Shown in pieces: positions 53,537 to 60,500 of a stretch of DNA of 64,000 bases; the first letter of the stretch is position 1, and every line of letters begins with the position of its first letter. This DNA comes from Azospirillum cavernae (lineage in GTDB: Bacteria; Pseudomonadota; Alphaproteobacteria; Azospirillales; Azospirillaceae), in the NCBI RefSeq assembly GCF_003590795.1, contig NZ_QYUL01000005.1:485001-549000 (forward strand). Direction: 5' to 3'. The notes beneath the pieces were generated by a model. It ran no database searches. It was not told where the DNA came from and worked only from the letters and a program-made list of their open reading frames with translations. Made by a program: the position numbers and the translations under genes.

Positions 53537-55744
53537 TCACCCAGCCGCGCCCGACATCCGTCGCCACAGCGCGTGATAGGCCCCTTCGACATCCTTGGTG
53601 AATTGCACCGGATCCGACAGGGGCGACGCCCGCATCCGGGCGCGCAGGCCGCCCCGCAGCGCGCGCAGCCGCTCCACATCCCCAGCCAACGCCACCGCCG
53701 TCTCGACATAGTCCGCGAGCGAGCGCGTCACCAAATCCTCCAAAGACACCGCGCGCAGCAGCGACGCGCCATAGCGGTCCAGCACCCGGTCCCCCGCCAG
53801 GGTGACAACCGGCACCCCCATCCACAGGGCTTGCGCCGTCGTGGTGACGCCGCCATAGGGGAAGCTGTCGAGATGGATGTCGATGCCGTTGAACGCGGCC
53901 ATATGCTCGTCCACGCTGGCGGTCGGCCCGCGAACCTCAAGCTGCGGCCCCAGCGCCCGGCTCAACGCCCGTTGGTCGCTGACAGTGACGTCCAGCGCCT
54001 TGACGATCAGGCGAGCCGTGGGAAGGCGGCGCAAAATCAACGCCCATGCCTCCAGGGTGGCCGCCGACAGCTTGCTCAGCGCGTTGAAACTGCCGAAGGT
54101 GACGCGCCCCGTTTTGGCGACGGGCGGCTCCAGCGCCGGGGCGGGCGTCGGAGCGAGAGGCGAGTAATGGTAGCCGATGGGCAACCGCATGACCTGTTCG
54201 GAAAAATCCGCGTCCCGCCCGACCGGAACCGTGGTTCCGTCCACCAGCACCGCATCCATCGCCGACAAGCCGGTGGTCGTCATCACCGGAAAATGGATCT
54301 GAAGCGGGGCCGGGCGCCGCGCCACGGTCAACAGCCGCGCGCTGTGTGAGGAAAAACCAGCGCCATCCACCAGAATGTCGATGGCGTCGGCGCGAATCAC
54401 ATCGGCCAACGCCGCGTTGTCCAACCCCGGCGCCCGGCGGAACAGCCCCGCCGCCGCCGCGTAACGCGCCAACAGCTCGTTGTCGTCATCGCGGCCCAGG
54501 GAATAGACCACAATGGTGAAATCGGCGCTGTGATGCTCGACCAGCGGCAAACAGGTGAAGTCGTGCGTCAGGAAATTTTCGCACAGATAGCCAACACGCA
54601 GCGGACGCCCCGCCGAAGACCGGGCGACGGGCGGCGGCGCCGCGCGCGTCAACGGCTCGGCATGGCGGTCCGCCCAACGCCGCGCCGCCGCCGTGATGAC
54701 AACCGCCGGAGCGTTGGTCAGGTTGAGGGACAGAATCGCCGAGGCCTCATGCCCCGGATCGCCGCTCAACCCTGCGGCGCGGGCGTACCATTCCGCCGCC
54801 TCCCCCGGCTCCCGCGCCCGCTCCAACGCGCGCGCCGCGCCCAGACACAGATCCACATTCGTCGGGTCGAGCGTCCAGCGCCACATCAGCGCGCGCATCC
54901 CCCGTTCGCGCTCCCGACAATCCAGCCAGGCCCGCGCCGCGCTGTCGAGCGCCGCCGGATGCGCCGGATCCAGCATGACCGCGTTGGCGAACGCCCGCGC
55001 CGCCTTCTCATAGGCGCTCACCGCGTGCCACGACACGCCAATGAACAAACACAGGTCGCGCGCCCGGTCTGCCCCAGCGGCCAGGGCCTGTCCCGCGATC
55101 AACCGCCACGCCTCGCCAAACAGCGCCAACGCCTCCGCATGGCCGCCGCCACATTGCCAGGACCGCCCACGGGCAAACAGGATGTCCGCCAAATTGTCGC
55201 GCAGATCCGGCGTGTCGAACCCACAGCCGAGCGCGGCGCGGTAACACCCCTCCGCCGCATCGTTTTGGCCAAGCCGTTGGAACGCGACCCCCAATTGAGC
55301 CTGAACGACGCCGGAACCCGGCATCGCCGCCGCCGCAAGCGACAGCAGCCGACAGGCGGCGCGCGGGTCGCCGCCCTCAAGGCGCTGTTGCCCGGCCTGC
55401 CCAAGAATCTCCGGCATCCAAGGTTCCAGCCGATCCGCCGCGATCAGGGCGACGGCCTGACAGAGCCACACGACCTCGCCACGTCGGCCAAGCGCCATCA
55501 ACAGCTTGGCGAGGTTTCCCACGCAATCGGGCCGGTCGGGGGCCAGCGCCACGGCCCGGCGCAACAGCGGTTCCGCCGCCTCCAGCCGCCCGGACTGCGC
55601 CAGCAGAAGCCCCAGCAGGTGCCACGCGTCCACCGTCGCCGGAGCGGCGTCGAGAATGCGGCGATGCAGCGTCTCCGCCTCGACGACGCGCCCCTGTTCC
55701 TGGTGATCCAACGCCGCCAACAGCGCGTCGCTTACGCTCGCCAT
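53537..55744 (-). CDS. TPR-glycosyltransferase 41 (OGT/SPINDLY-like), second of two tandem copies
   Basis: A 735-residue cytoplasmic protein. The N-terminal half (about 5-340) consists of tetratricopeptide repeats (DAWHLLGLLLAQSGRLEAAE; LGVAFQRLGQNDAAEGCYRA). The C-terminal half is a GT41 domain: N-lobe RPLRVGYLCENFLTHDFTCL and ADAIDILVDGAGFSSHSARL, central APLQIHFPVMTTTGLSAMDA, C-lobe GRVTFGSFNALSKLSAATLE, and nucleotide-sugar region IDIHLDSFPYGGVTTTAQAL then MGVPVVTLAGDRVLDRYGAS. It adds GlcNAc, fucose or another sugar to proteins. Flagellin or another surface protein is the usual bacterial target, but no substrate gene is adjacent. Its ATG overlaps the stop of the preceding homologue (TGATG), so both are one unit. 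Confidence 0.9.
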   Translation of the reverse strand: MASVSDALLAALDHQEQGRVVEAETLHRRILDAAPATVDAWHLLGLLLAQSGRLEAAEPLLRRAVALAPDRPDCVGNLAKLLMALGRRGEVVWLCQAVALIAADRLEPWMPEILGQAGQQRLEGGDPRAACRLLSLAAAAMPGSGVVQAQLGVAFQRLGQNDAAEGCYRAALGCGFDTPDLRDNLADILFARGRSWQCGGGHAEALALFGEAWRLIAGQALAAGADRARDLCLFIGVSWHAVSAYEKAARAFANAVMLDPAHPAALDSAARAWLDCRERERGMRALMWRWTLDPTNVDLCLGAARALERAREPGEAAEWYARAAGLSGDPGHEASAILSLNLTNAPAVVITAAARRWADRHAEPLTRAAPPPVARSSAGRPLRVGYLCENFLTHDFTCLPLVEHHSADFTIVVYSLGRDDDNELLARYAAAAGLFRRAPGLDNAALADVIRADAIDILVDGAGFSSHSARLLTVARRPAPLQIHFPVMTTTGLSAMDAVLVDGTTVPVGRDADFSEQVMRLPIGYHYSPLAPTPAPALEPPVAKTGRVTFGSFNALSKLSAATLEAWALILRRLPTARLIVKALDVTVSDQRALSRALGPQLEVRGPTASVDEHMAAFNGIDIHLDSFPYGGVTTTAQALWMGVPVVTLAGDRVLDRYGASLLRAVSLEDLVTRSLADYVETAVALAGDVERLRALRGGLRARMRASPLSDPVQFTKDVEGAYHALWRRMSGAAG

Positions 55745-58143
55745 CACGCCCCCGCTTGCGCCCGTTCATGACAGAAGCGCCGCCAAACCGTCCGATACAA
55801 GCGCTCGACCTGACGGGCGCGGCGGCGACCGTCGCACAGGGGGGACGCGGTCAGCCGGTCCCGCAGCGTCGCCCGCAGGTCCGAAAGACGGGCCGGATCG
55901 CTCGCCAGCGCCTCGGCGATCGTCACATACTCGTCCTCGCAGGACGCAACCAGACCGTCCAAGCGCAAGGCGCGCAGCATCGACGCCGACCAGCGGCTGA
56001 CCATGGTGTCGCCCGGCAGGGTGATGACCGGAACGCCCATGACCAACGCCTCGAAGGTCGTCGTCGAACCGCAGAAGGGAAACGGATCCAGCGCGATGTC
56101 GATGCCGCTGTATCGGGCGAGGTGGGTGGCGGGCCGCTCCGCCTCCGCCGGGTCGGCCCACAACCGGGATGGATCGACCCCGCCCGCACTCAACGCCGCG
56201 CGGATGCGGCCGACGCAAAGGTCGGAGCGGTAGGAATCCAGATATTTCAGCACCAGCCGCGCTTGCGGGATCCGCGCCATCAGCCTGGCCCACAGCCGCA
56301 ACGTCTCGTCCGAAATTTTGGCCGGGTTGTTGAAGCAGCCAAAGCGGATCACCCCATCGGCCAGCATCGGCAACGGGCCGGGCGGCGGCGCGGCGGCTGG
56401 AATCGCCGCCACGTAAAAGCTGGGCAGGCGCAAGGGCCGTTCGGTGAAACGCTCCGCCCCATGGCGTGGCGTCATCGTCCGGTCGGTGATGAGATAATCG
56501 ATGGCCGACAGGCCGCTGGTCGCCGCGTCGTGAAGGCTGATCTGCACCGGAGCCGGCCGCAGGTGGCAGATGTGGGGGCGGTTGTTGTCGAAGCGGATCC
56601 CCAACGGAACCAGAATGTCCACGCCGTCCGCCCGCATCCGCGCGGCGACCGTCGAATCGTCCTGCCCGGTGATGTCGCGCCAGCCATCGGACAGGACGCG
56701 AAACCGCTCCGTCGTCGCGTCGGGTTCCAGAACATGGGCGTAGACGATGACCTCGAACCCGTCCCGGTCGCGATTCTCAAACAACGGCAGCAGGTTGCGC
56801 CCGATGGGCTGGAACGCCCGCAGGTCGGAGGTCAGATAGCCGATCCGCAAGCGGCGATCTGGGTCCAGGCGGTTGGCGAAGGGAAGCGGCGGCACGGCCA
56901 GCGGTGGAAAGGCGGCCTCCAGACGGCGGTGCAGCGCAAAGCGGCGTTCCGCGTCGACCCCGGGCACATAGAGGATCGACAGCATGGCCGCGCGGTGCCA
57001 ATTGGCCCGATCCGCGCCAAACCGCAAGGCGCGCTCCAGCCACGCCGAACCAAGGCGGGCGAAGCCAAGCCCGGTCACCAGCGCGCCCAGACTGTGCAGG
57101 GGATCGCCCAGATCCGGGGCCAGCGCCACCACCCGCCGCAGCAGCGCCAAGGCGCCGTCGCGATCCGACTGTTCGATGAGCGCTTGGGCAAGATTGTAGA
57201 GGATGACCGGGTCATCCGGCGCCCGCCGCGCCAGCGCCGTCAAGCGCTGTTCCGCCGCCGCCACCTCTTTGCGGGCAAGCAGCAGGACGGCCAGGGTCAA
57301 GCCGCTGTCGCGGTCGCCCGGTTCCAGGGCTTCCGCCCACAGCAAGGCGCGCTCCGCCACGCCGCTTTGCCCTTGGCGCCGGGCGATGTCCCCCAACCGG
57401 CGGTAGGGCGACGGGTCATCCGGGCGCAGCGCCGCTTGACGTTGGAACAGCGCGGCGGCCTCGGCCAGACACCCTGAATCGACGCGAATTTGCCCCAAGG
57501 CGCCCCACACCAGGGCGAATTGCGGATCCCGGTCCAGCGCTTGGCGAAAATGGTCCGCCGCCTGCGCCGCGCGGCCCTGCCGTTGCCGGACCAACGCCAG
57601 ATTGGCCTGCACAAGCGCCGAGGTCGGATCGCGCTCCGCCGCCCGCTCCAGCAGCGCCACCGCTTGGTCCTCCAAGCCATCAACACGGCTGAGCGCCAGC
57701 GCCAGCCCAGTCAACGCCTCCAGACTGACCGCCGCTGAATTGGACAGGACCAGACAGGCCAATTCCCGCGCCTCGGCCGCCGCCCCTTGCGCGGCGCGCA
57801 GCGCGCCAAGTCGGGACGCGGCCTCAACATTGCCGGGTTGCAGGGTCAGACTGTGGGCGTCATGCCGCCCGGCGCCGTCCTTGTCCGCGTCGGCCCGCAG
57901 AATGTTCGCCATATTTCCGTGAAAATCTGGCCGCGCCGGGGCCAGCGCCACCGCCCGCGCGATCCGCCGCCGCGCCCCGGCGACATCCCCGGTCATGCCG
58001 CACAGCACGCCCAGCAGATGGTGCGCGTCGGCCTGCTCAGGATCCGCGTCAAGAATGCGCTGGTACAGGAGTCTCGCTTCGCCAACCCGCCCCGCCTGAT
58101 GCAGATCCAGGGCCATCACAAGCGCTTCGCCGATGCTCGCCAT
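55744..58143 (-). CDS. TPR-glycosyltransferase 41 (OGT/SPINDLY-like), first of two tandem copies
   Basis: A 799-residue homologue of the following gene. TPR repeats cover about 5-430 (EARLLYQRILDADPEQADAH; QADAHHLLGVLCGMTGDVAG) and are more numerous than in its neighbour. The GT41 part has RRLRIGYLTSDLRAFQPIGR, VDILVPLGIRFDNNRPHICH, PVQISLHDAATSGLSAIDYL, IRFGCFNNPAKISDETLRLW and IDIALDPFPFCGSTTTFEAL then MGVPVITLPGDTMVSRWSAS. Compared with the other copy the IDILV segment has PLGIRF where OGTs usually have DLxGHT, a sign of altered acceptor or donor preference. The ATG at 58143 (MASIGEALVM) is supported by matching the N-terminus of the second copy (MASVSDALLA). The operon is separated by 112 bases from the GGDEF/EAL gene. 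Confidence 0.9.
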   Translation of the reverse strand: MASIGEALVMALDLHQAGRVGEARLLYQRILDADPEQADAHHLLGVLCGMTGDVAGARRRIARAVALAPARPDFHGNMANILRADADKDGAGRHDAHSLTLQPGNVEAASRLGALRAAQGAAAEARELACLVLSNSAAVSLEALTGLALALSRVDGLEDQAVALLERAAERDPTSALVQANLALVRQRQGRAAQAADHFRQALDRDPQFALVWGALGQIRVDSGCLAEAAALFQRQAALRPDDPSPYRRLGDIARRQGQSGVAERALLWAEALEPGDRDSGLTLAVLLLARKEVAAAEQRLTALARRAPDDPVILYNLAQALIEQSDRDGALALLRRVVALAPDLGDPLHSLGALVTGLGFARLGSAWLERALRFGADRANWHRAAMLSILYVPGVDAERRFALHRRLEAAFPPLAVPPLPFANRLDPDRRLRIGYLTSDLRAFQPIGRNLLPLFENRDRDGFEVIVYAHVLEPDATTERFRVLSDGWRDITGQDDSTVAARMRADGVDILVPLGIRFDNNRPHICHLRPAPVQISLHDAATSGLSAIDYLITDRTMTPRHGAERFTERPLRLPSFYVAAIPAAAPPPGPLPMLADGVIRFGCFNNPAKISDETLRLWARLMARIPQARLVLKYLDSYRSDLCVGRIRAALSAGGVDPSRLWADPAEAERPATHLARYSGIDIALDPFPFCGSTTTFEALVMGVPVITLPGDTMVSRWSASMLRALRLDGLVASCEDEYVTIAEALASDPARLSDLRATLRDRLTASPLCDGRRRARQVERLYRTVWRRFCHERAQAGA

Positions 58144-58255: not shown

Positions 58256-60313
58256 TTACGCGGCCACCGTCCGGTTGCTCATGAAGGCCGCGAACATCTC
58301 CGCCGGCAAGGGGCGGCTGATGAGATAACCCTGAATGCAGGTGCAGCGCTGTTCCCGCAAGATCGCCGCCTGTTCCCAGGTCTCCACCCCTTCGGCGATG
58401 GTGTCGAAGCCCAGGCTTTCGGCAAGATTCACAATGGTTCCGACAATCGCCGGATCGGTGGACGACTTGACGATGTCGCGGACGAAGCTGCGGTCAATCT
58501 TCAGCGTGTCGATGGGGAAGCGCTTGAGATAGGCGAGCGACGAATAGCCGGTGCCGAAATCATCAATGGACAAGCGGACGCCGATGTCCTTCAGGCCATT
58601 CAGGATCGTCACCGCCTTTTCGATGTCGCCAATCATCGCCCCTTCGGTCAGCTCCAACTCCAGCCGGTCCGGCTGAATGCCCGACGCCTCGACGACGCTG
58701 CGGACGAAGCCGACCAGCCGCGCGTCCTGGAACTGGCGCGGCGACAGGTTGACCGACACCGAGGGAATCGGAATGCCCTGCTTGGTCCACAGCGCCAGTT
58801 GGCGACAGGCTTCCATGAAGGTCCAGGCGCCGATCTCCCAGATCAGGCCGGTGTCCTCGGCCAGCGGAATGAACTCCGCCGGGCTGACCATGCCGCGCAC
58901 CGGGTGGAGCCAGCGGATCAGCGCCTCCGCCCCGATCACCCGGTCGGTCGCCAGATCGATCTTGGGTTGGTAATGCAGCTCGAACTCTTCGCCGCCGCTG
59001 GCCCGGCGCAGATCACTTTCCAGCCCCAGCGAGAAGCCCGACCGTTCGCGCATCCCGCCATCGTAGAACACGAACTTGTGCTCCGGGTTGCGCTTGGCGT
59101 GATACATGGCCAGATCGGCGTTGCGCAGAAGCTGGTCCGCCGTTTCACCGTCGTCGGGGTAGAAGGCCAGCCCGATGGACGCGCCGCAGAAAAGCTCTTG
59201 ATTGTGGACGCCGAACGGCTCGTCCATCGAGTAAAGGACCTTCTCGACCAGCCGGGCGCCGGCCGAACGGTCGGCGGCGTCGGGGGCGACGATCAGGAAC
59301 TCGTCGCCGCCCAGGCGGCCAACCGTGTCGGTCATCCGCGTGCAGTTGCGCAGCCGCCGCGCCACCAGCTTCAACAAATCATCCCCGGCGTGATGGCCGA
59401 GCGTGTCGTTGACCTGTTTGAAGCGGTTGAGGTCGAGGAAGGCGACCGCCACCTTGCTGTGGTTGCGCTGGGCGCGCGCAATCGCCTCTTCCAGCCGTTC
59501 GCAGACCAGCCAGCGGTTGGGCAGGTCGGTCAGCCGGTCGAAGCTGGCCTGATAGCGGATCTGGTGCTCTTGGGACTTGCGCTGGCTGATGTCGGCGATG
59601 GTGAGCACGTAATGCTCCAGCACGCCGCTGGGCGCGCGCACCGACGTCACCGACAGGGCGGCGGCGAAGGCGTCGCCGGAATGGCGGAAGCTGGTCACTT
59701 CGCCCTGCCAGCGCCCGGCCTGCCGCGCGGTGGTCCAGATGGAATCGATGAAGGTCCGCTCGTGCGAGCCGGGGGCGAACAGGACCAGCGGGCGGCGCAG
59801 CAACTCCTCGCGCTGAAAGCCGGTGGTGATCTCATAGGCCGGGTTGATGGCCTGGACCGTCAATTCCGGATCAACAATCAGGATGCCGTCGGCGACGCTG
59901 TCGAACACGGTGGCGAGCAGCCGGATTTTCTCCTCATGCTGCTTGCGCTCGGTGATGTCCTGAACGGTGCCTTCGTAAAAGCGGATGCGCCCGGCGGCGT
60001 CGCGCACGCAGCGCGCGCTTTCGGCGATCCAGATGATCGTGCCGTCGCGGCGGAAAACCCGGGCCTCAAAGGAATGGACCGTGTCCTTGCGGGCCATCAG
60101 ATCGGCGAAGGCTTCGCGCTTGCCGGGGTCCACATAAAGCTGACCGGCGATGTCGGTCAGGTTGGCGATCAAATCATCGGGGGAGCTGTAACCGTAAATC
60201 TCAGCCAGGGCCGAGTTGACGCGCAAATAGCGACCGTCCGTCGTCGTTTGATAAATGCCCTCCACGGCATTTTCGAAGATGCTGCGGTACTGCTCTTCCG
60301 TCTCATGACTCAT
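58256..60313 (-). CDS. PAS-PAS-GGDEF-EAL cyclic-di-GMP enzyme
   Basis: A 685-residue cytoplasmic signalling protein. Two PAS domains (about 1-125 and 126-250, each followed by a PAC-like EGTVQDITERK or VLTIADISQRK) precede a GGDEF domain (about 255-420). This has an intact active site RLGGDEFLIV and, 5 residues before it, an RxxD inhibitory site (RMTD). The EAL domain (about 430-680) has GAEALIRWLHP, ELTEGAMIG, SIDDFGTGYSSLAYL and TLKIDRSFV, so catalytic residues for phosphodiesterase are also present. It can therefore make or degrade c-di-GMP under control of the PAS input. No membrane segment is seen. ATG 60313 follows GGAAGAGG. Its neighbourhood with glycosyltransferases hints at motility or surface control. 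Confidence 0.95.
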   Translation of the reverse strand: MSHETEEQYRSIFENAVEGIYQTTTDGRYLRVNSALAEIYGYSSPDDLIANLTDIAGQLYVDPGKREAFADLMARKDTVHSFEARVFRRDGTIIWIAESARCVRDAAGRIRFYEGTVQDITERKQHEEKIRLLATVFDSVADGILIVDPELTVQAINPAYEITTGFQREELLRRPLVLFAPGSHERTFIDSIWTTARQAGRWQGEVTSFRHSGDAFAAALSVTSVRAPSGVLEHYVLTIADISQRKSQEHQIRYQASFDRLTDLPNRWLVCERLEEAIARAQRNHSKVAVAFLDLNRFKQVNDTLGHHAGDDLLKLVARRLRNCTRMTDTVGRLGGDEFLIVAPDAADRSAGARLVEKVLYSMDEPFGVHNQELFCGASIGLAFYPDDGETADQLLRNADLAMYHAKRNPEHKFVFYDGGMRERSGFSLGLESDLRRASGGEEFELHYQPKIDLATDRVIGAEALIRWLHPVRGMVSPAEFIPLAEDTGLIWEIGAWTFMEACRQLALWTKQGIPIPSVSVNLSPRQFQDARLVGFVRSVVEASGIQPDRLELELTEGAMIGDIEKAVTILNGLKDIGVRLSIDDFGTGYSSLAYLKRFPIDTLKIDRSFVRDIVKSSTDPAIVGTIVNLAESLGFDTIAEGVETWEQAAILREQRCTCIQGYLISRPLPAEMFAAFMSNRTVAA

Positions 60314-60500
60314 TGTGCGCGCCTCTTCCGACGCCAAGCCTGAACCGCCTGGAAACAACATCTCGCCACTCAAACATACGATTGTGAACAGTCCAACTTT
60401 TACCGCACCGCAGAAAAGTAGATGCCGACCCGCCGAAACCCGTCAAGCCCGATCTCAGGGACTGTCGCACACCACGCGTCAAAATATAACAGGAATGTAA

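Follow-up and report, generated by a model that had tools for sequence, protein, structure and literature searches.

Two adjoining SPINDLY-like GT41 glycosyltransferases of different subfamilies in Azospirillum cavernae, and their putative joint action on one protein

The window, that is, the whole stretch of DNA analysed, is 64,000 nucleotides from Azospirillum cavernae (contig NZ_QYUL01000005.1, positions 485,001 to 549,000). Within it, as seen with open-reading-frame analysis, two minus-strand genes fill positions 53537-58143, each encoding a TPR-GT41 glycosyltransferase. The upstream gene, i.e., the one transcribed first and here termed copy 1 (P0001; 55744..58143, minus strand), encodes a protein of 799 aa. 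The downstream gene, copy 2 (53537..55744, minus strand), has its ATG at 55744 and its end at 53537, and encodes 735 aa. The copy 1 stop codon shares the motif TGATG (55742..55746, minus strand) with the copy 2 start codon, and the two proteins probably are co-translated. That two GT41 genes are so joined was already claimed in the initial annotation, and this is borne out, with coordinates exact and with PF13844 (GT41) scores of 132.2 bits for copy 1 and 114.5 bits for copy 2, far above chance given a cut-off of 25. Beyond the pair, 112 bp upstream of copy 1 and outside of the system as here understood, Pfam identifies a PAS-PAS-GGDEF-EAL protein (58256..60373, minus strand). A search of the window against Rfam returned no match. 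At the pair, promoter-like sites (1 versus 0.5 expected) and terminator-like sites (4 versus 4.5 expected) included none of use, its flanks hold no inverted repeats of at least 12, and no gene for an acceptor adjoins it.

Both proteins, as based on models and structural matches, possess the TPR superhelix joined to a GT-B fold that is looked for in GT41 enzymes. The copy 1 superhelix spans residues 4-411 in 12 helix pairs (56911..58134, minus strand; DSSP of the model and Pfam TPR families), and is followed by a catalytic domain at about residues 418-795 (55759..56892, minus strand). In copy 2 the model places the superhelix at residues 4-341, with 10 helix pairs and with residues 179-217 poorly predicted (54722..55735, minus strand), and the catalytic domain lies at about residues 380-731 (53552..54607, minus strand), both catalytic domains being delimited by Pfam, alignments and model. 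Earlier estimates of TPR length, about 430 and about 340 residues, thus were close. The AlphaFold2 models are confident (mean pLDDT of 93.6 for copy 1 and 88.6 for copy 2), and the best solved match of each is SPINDLY 7y4i, at Z 49.9 over 783 residues with an rmsd of 9.8 for copy 1 and Z 47.8 over 679 residues with an rmsd of 11.5 for copy 2, followed for both by TtOGT, XcOGT and animal OGT. I take the high full-length rmsd values as probably reflecting flexible superhelices.

The TPR parts deserve some caution as indicators of specificity. The copy 2 counterpart in A. doebereinerae is 689 aa long, and its alignment with copy 2 of the window has 47 gap columns within the TPR part. Judged by this alignment, TPR length is no stable trait, and the number of repeats is insufficient by itself to encode a stable specificity. 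Similarly, the first 84 residues of the two copies are 52% identical, versus 40% for their catalytic parts, but this greater closeness was rejected as a sign of pairing, as the copy 1 module is equally near (55-60% identical) to modules of other proteins, including those of the flagellin locus around C5:131168-133435. Indeed, an N-terminal TPR module of approximately 84 residues (57892-58143 and 55493-55744 in the pair) is common to many proteins of the genome, and is seen also in loci L044, L124, L125, L127 and L129; some of its bearers carry GT4, GT7 or GT9 domains, and it perhaps is a shuffled docking module. Asn at position 6 of the first TPR helix, which we take to be the site that carries an Asn ladder, occurs, upon reading by eye, in 3 of 12 repeats of copy 1 and 2 of 10 of copy 2, which is too weak a signal.

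SPINDLY (AtSPY), a nucleocytoplasmic protein O-fucosyltransferase of GT41 that resembles both copies in layout at about 24-29% identity in structural alignments, served as the ruler for the active sites. Its essential K665 (OGT K842), mutants of which are reported as dead (PMC9715652), has as counterparts Lys609 of copy 1 (56317..56319, minus strand) and Lys558 of copy 2 (54071..54073, minus strand), i.e., the conserved catalytic Lys of GT41 is present in both. K689 and H728, which contact the base, likewise have their counterparts in both. Copy 2 also keeps H495, as His394 (54563..54565, minus strand). Copy 1, unlike SPINDLY, does not: alignments place there its AFQP (residues 443-446; 56806..56817, minus strand), with one inserted residue and with Gln445 at the H495 place. 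Gln together with the insertion is found solely in copy 1 and its A. doebereinerae orthologue (2 of 23 rows of alignment A1), with Gln at this place seen also in locus L111 and in the genome's own paralogue at C1:616808, for a total of 4 of 22 rows of the copy 1 clade. The H495A and H495F forms of SPINDLY are reported as dead, an effect which its authors describe as structural, with the donor phosphate acting as base (PMC9715652).

With regard to donors, the SPINDLY triad K689/A731/Y744 is reported to separate GDP-fucose from UDP-GlcNAc enzymes (PMC10027727). Copy 2 has the same K/A/Y triad (K582/A617/Y630), which marks SPY-like enzymes according to that source, whereas the copy 1 triad is mixed (K633/R677/F690), as also are the donor-selecting residues of an intermediate prokaryotic TPR-GT group described there; Phe at the Y744 place is reported as well for ApHMW1C, a glucose enzyme (PMC9715652). 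The OGT triad L866/R904/C917 is matched at one of three places by copy 1 (K/R/F) and at none of three by copy 2 (K/A/Y). At the places of E752, V497 and I592, copy 1 has E698 (kept), I447 and H538, while copy 2, which departs from SPINDLY here, has Q638, F396 and P486, along with D for S496; neither copy possesses all three residues of E752 plus the V497/I592 methyl pocket. K689A, E752A and Y744A are reported as dead in planta (PMC10027727), and other changes at the E752, S496, V497 and I592 places as lowering or abolishing activity. Copy 2 is predicted, that is, to have a SPY-type (GDP-fucose-type) triad among changed neighbours and copy 1 a mixed triad, the donors of both being predictions from these residues. 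A profile search finds gmd in the genome (596 bits), the product of which presumably supplies the precursor for GDP-fucose and related donors.

A further difference is the loop equivalent to DLxGHT, which aligns with SPINDLY 570-572 (GHT) and reads PLGIRF in copy 1 (residues 513-518; 56590..56607, minus strand) and GAGFSS in copy 2 (residues 461-466; 54347..54364, minus strand). G570D and T572M are known spy mutants, lying near the sugar (PMC9715652, PMC10027727). PLGIRF had been singled out in the initial annotation as peculiar to one copy, and the motif indeed is present, but the peculiarity mostly is not: among the 22 rows of the copy 1 clade, Arg replaces His in 17 and Phe replaces Thr in 19, with Arg or Phe at the respective place in 0 of 57 rows outside of that clade, making the loop a clade signature. 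As an oddity of one copy it thus was rejected except for Gly-to-Ile, seen in 2 of the 22 rows, i.e., copy 1 and its orthologue, the other oddity being the change of H495 to Gln. Compared with SPINDLY and OGT, as had been suggested earlier, the predicted donor pockets of the two copies differ.

The pair had initially been described as a duplicated one, and it is this description that fails. A tree was built from 66 catalytic domains, drawn from 79 aligned rows (77 from the window and the loci, plus SPINDLY and TtOGT); the 13 rows left out were near-duplicates, incomplete or very divergent, including C1:340936, C1:2347524 and C6:69632 of this genome, and proteins of less than 480 aa along with the multi-domain proteins of loci L051 and L066 were kept out of the alignment. 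Copy 1 falls into a clade of 22 rows (support 100/98), mostly of Rhodospirillales proteins. Copy 2 falls into a separate clade of five rows (100/100), consisting otherwise of copy 2 of A. doebereinerae, the first domain of a fused protein of the congener G033, and one gene each from the congeners G030 and G032. A constrained tree that unites both copies with the two orthologues from A. doebereinerae is 264 log units worse and is rejected (p-AU 3.85e-6), which excludes recent local tandem duplication, and the outcome envisaged earlier as damaging, a recent duplication with the same pocket, did not occur. With the copies in separate clades, the phylogeny indicates two old paralogues, of a family of 21 genes, which have come to lie side by side. 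Of 82 genomes of the order, 5 have a member of the copy 2 clade, and these 5 belong to the genus; scores next drop from 414 to 271 bits. Relative to A. doebereinerae, dN is 0.177 (copy 1) and 0.227 (copy 2) in the catalytic parts and 0.316 and 0.356 in the TPR parts, with dS of 0.73-0.96, giving dN/dS of about 0.24-0.26 and 0.33-0.39, respectively. These low ratios in both genes imply that both are maintained, i.e., under purifying selection.

Among named organisms, A. doebereinerae GSF71 has the closest relative of copy 1 (L049; 67% over the full length). The pair recurs there behind the same EAL gene, and further on come an ABC transporter and a hydrolase. The two genes there are separated by 6 bp, and the TGATG overlap thus is not conserved. 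The neighbouring genes are found also on replicons of plasmid size in A. oryzae, A. lipoferum and A. ramasamyi. In the three records examined, one per species (strain 4B for A. lipoferum), the EAL gene is present but the pair is absent, and its place is occupied by either another GGDEF/EAL gene or a response regulator. The pair therefore is lineage-specific beside a conserved gene. That a c-di-GMP enzyme adjoins the pair, as was pointed out earlier, is correct, but the association looks incidental, and a functional link to it is unsupported. Against a plasmid collection, at E 1e-80, copy 1 gave one partial match, in A. thermophilum (50%), and copy 2 gave no match.

In the congener G033, homologues of copy 2 and of the copy 1 clade reside in one open frame of 1308 aa (at 88 to 91 kb of contig 1), in the order TPR block, copy-2-type GT41, shorter TPR-like middle block, and copy-1-clade GT41. 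The two domains are 55.6% identical to copy 2 and 53.4% to copy 1, both are above the Pfam cut-off, and there are no internal stops. A fused homologue of two neighbouring genes is a usual sign of joint function, and here it points towards joint action on one acceptor rather than towards the divided specificity proposed at the outset. In the best tree, the copy-1-type domain of this protein falls into a different subclade (98/89), but placement inside the clade of copy 1 itself is not rejected (p-AU 0.34), and a claim that the pairing arose twice was dropped, as the data do not allow it. A cytidylate kinase-like gene (PF13189; L110:6688-7377) lies 44 bp upstream of the fused gene. In G030 and G032, the copy-2-type gene instead is alone, with no second GT41 in the surrounding 16-17 kb. 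Copy-2-type genes thus number five in 45 genomes of the genus, three of which adjoin, or are fused with, a copy-1-clade domain, and all five genomes are among the 8 of 45 that have a copy 1 relative at 1e-100, a count that ignores kinship.

Profile searching of the A. cavernae genome identifies 21 GT41 genes (42 matching pieces, 41 above cut-off), all 21 of which are recovered again using copy 1 as query; by coordinates, the window pair is the only abutting, co-directional one. GT41 matches occur in 36 of 36 congeners, at from at least 10 to at least 27 pieces each with the best 19 candidates scored, so a large GT41 set is a genus trait and the pair is one item within it. The neighbours of four of the 21 genes were assessed by profile. 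Some gene lists came from a GC-bias caller that makes errors (it missed some GT41 genes, C5:436865-438814 for one), and claims as to neighbours were made via Pfam or by eye. Two of the four are in flagellar loci on the replicon that carries the pair. One, at C5:131168-133435 and a basal member of the copy 1 clade, is 6.8 kb from a flagellin gene (PF00669, 50.5 bits). For the other, at C5:436865-438814, a gene with a weak flagellin score that is below cut-off (20.3 bits) lies 1.5 kb away, and hook-like genes were recognised by eye. In a third locus (L043:80-10507; G000:C4) a DUF5650/FG-GAP repeat protein and a ShlB/POTRA partner are followed, 1.2 kb on, by a SPINDLY-like GT41, which is the gene order of an HMW1-type locus but with another GT41 subfamily. 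In the fourth (L048:659-18742; G000:C2) a GT41 gene stands 0.5 kb before that of a 4944-aa protein with 38 Big_13 (Ig-repeat) stretches and an RTX repeat, a candidate giant adhesin. Such an arrangement suits a family in which members each would be assigned to an exported protein that is modified first in the cytoplasm, as is reported for FlmG and flagellins (PMC7591256), with HMW1C-like enzymes described as encoded beside their adhesins (PMC3983070).

A number of other arrangements were encountered along the way. The first of the above flagellar loci (L044; G000:C5:122477-139851), with flagellin followed by TPR proteins of 1990, 755 (GT41), 1168, 415 and 520 aa, likely is a flagellin glycosylation island. 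Another gene of the genome (L041:7871-11668; G000:C3:141870-145667) encodes TPRs, GT41 and a C-terminal, heptosyltransferase-type GT9 in one chain. Copy-1-clade GT41 genes follow a Porin_4 gene at a distance of 72 bp in Paramagnetospirillum marisnigri (L054:6549-10541) and of 51 bp in a Rhodospirillaceae MAG (L058:6303-9905). Expansion within single proteins also occurs: in the MAG Proteobacteria bacterium SKS4.bin33 an ORF of 3873 aa (L051:138-11759, plus strand) has five GT41 domains of the copy 1 clade type, which are 46-52% identical to copy 1 and 55-63% among themselves, and the next ORF (L051:10880-16924, plus strand) has two more, Pfam supporting several domains per frame. A Geobacteraceae MAG likewise has a 1992-aa ORF with two GT41 domains (L066:5591-11569, plus strand).

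Known bacterial systems offer partial likenesses. TtOGT (5djs) and XcOGT (2jlb) share fold and layout with both copies, at 30-34% and about 26% identity, respectively, in structural alignments, and among solved structures it is TtOGT that copy 2 matches best in sequence. TtOGT, however, is reported as giving no in vitro transfer to peptides (PMC4683255), so that no activity can be extrapolated from it to the window copies. FlmG of Caulobacter also combines TPRs with GT-B, and its presumed representative here (L085, 596 aa; named by length) can be aligned to both copies over the GT41 part, but that protein belongs to a separate clade of six rows (100/100), and no flagellin gene lies beside the window pair. 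HMW1C/NGT shares the GT41 GT-B domain, though with an AAD domain instead of TPRs (PMC3983070). The ngt-agt genes of Actinobacillus pleuropneumoniae offer a precedent, with two co-located and co-transcribed cytoplasmic glycosyltransferases reported to act on one protein, though agt is described there as an alpha-6-glucosyltransferase and not as a second GT41 (PMC5303269). A literature search on tandem, fused or expanded bacterial GT41, by titles and the starts of abstracts and mostly in journals other than subscription ones, found no such pair.

Our preferred interpretation, to which we assign somewhat less than an even chance, is that two SPINDLY-type TPR glycosyltransferases, from different GT41 subfamilies and made together, team on one protein acceptor. 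Both would be cytoplasmic, gripping the acceptor with the TPR superhelix and using the GT-B domain to hand over a sugar taken from a nucleotide donor. They might add different sugars, or use different sites, or one might extend the sugar of the other, with the shared acceptor most likely being a protein that is modified before export; that is, the shared acceptor, the order of action and the export are what we infer. Counted for joint action are the adjoining or fusion of three of the five copy-2-type genes with a copy-1-clade domain, the status of the pair as the sole abutting one in the genome, and the ngt-agt precedent, with the exported neighbours of other GT41 genes counted for the export reading. 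Counted against are the solitary copy-2-type genes, the lack of an adjoining acceptor gene and the unconserved overlap, along with the missing active-site His, the change of which to Ala or Phe kills SPINDLY, such that copy 1 may be inactive. These signs of joint action, read from gene arrangement, are sound but circumstantial.

The missing His can be pressed further, into the suggestion that copy 1 is a pseudoenzyme, with little or no catalysis of its own, that brings the acceptor to copy 2 or activates it. Gln plus insertion, shared with the orthologue and with Gln recurring in the clade, would fit with this, as would the dead H495 mutants, although those reported are Ala and Phe rather than Gln (PMC9715652). 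As Lys609 and most nucleotide-site residues are kept, as the catalytic part of copy 1 evolves more slowly than its TPR part, and as the H495 effect was put down to structure, we consider such a role for copy 1 to be unlikely. That both enzymes are active and act independently on acceptors of their own, with adjacency serving co-expression alone, we see as rather unlikely. In its favour are the unequal lengths of the TPR parts and their faster divergence relative to the catalytic parts, the differing catalytic pockets, and the copy-2-type gene standing alone in G030 and G032; against it are the fusion into one polypeptide in G033 and the tight adjacency kept in two species.

The acceptor itself might instead be flagellin or another flagellar protein encoded elsewhere, much as with FlmG. 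Azospirillum brasilense flagellin is reported as glycosylated (PMC12826043), a basal copy-1-clade member resides near flagellin, and modules at that locus resemble the N-terminus of copy 1. That module nevertheless is common to many proteins, the Caulobacter protein of FlmG length is in a different clade, two flagellar loci already have their own GT41, and the nearest flagellin-family match (C5:433318) is about 105 kb off, upholding the earlier remark that the pair is away from any flagellin gene. Altogether a flagellar acceptor seems improbable. That the acceptor is a polysaccharide or lipid we regard as highly improbable, for while no protein acceptor was found, the characterised GT41 enzymes compared here act on proteins, and long TPR domains suit protein acceptors.

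To return to the preferred reading, joint action on one protein, the strongest finding is that two subfamilies are paired and also fused, with one member lacking a His that is required in SPINDLY. A bolder proposal, one which we consider rather doubtful, is that a GRF-type GT41 without the active-site His and a SPINDLY-type GT41 form one unit, as overlapping genes or as a double-headed enzyme, placing two different sugars on one acceptor. If true, then together with the five-domain protein of L051 this would imply a new architecture for protein glycosylation in the cytoplasm, that of multi-GT41 assembly lines. Very few bacterial SPINDLY-like enzymes are reported as characterised (PMC10027727). 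The copy 1 clade would provide a direct test of the need for the active-site His in GT41 catalysis, and a genome of 21 GT41 genes, several of them beside those of exported proteins, would supply natural pairs and fusions with which to separate donor choice from acceptor choice.
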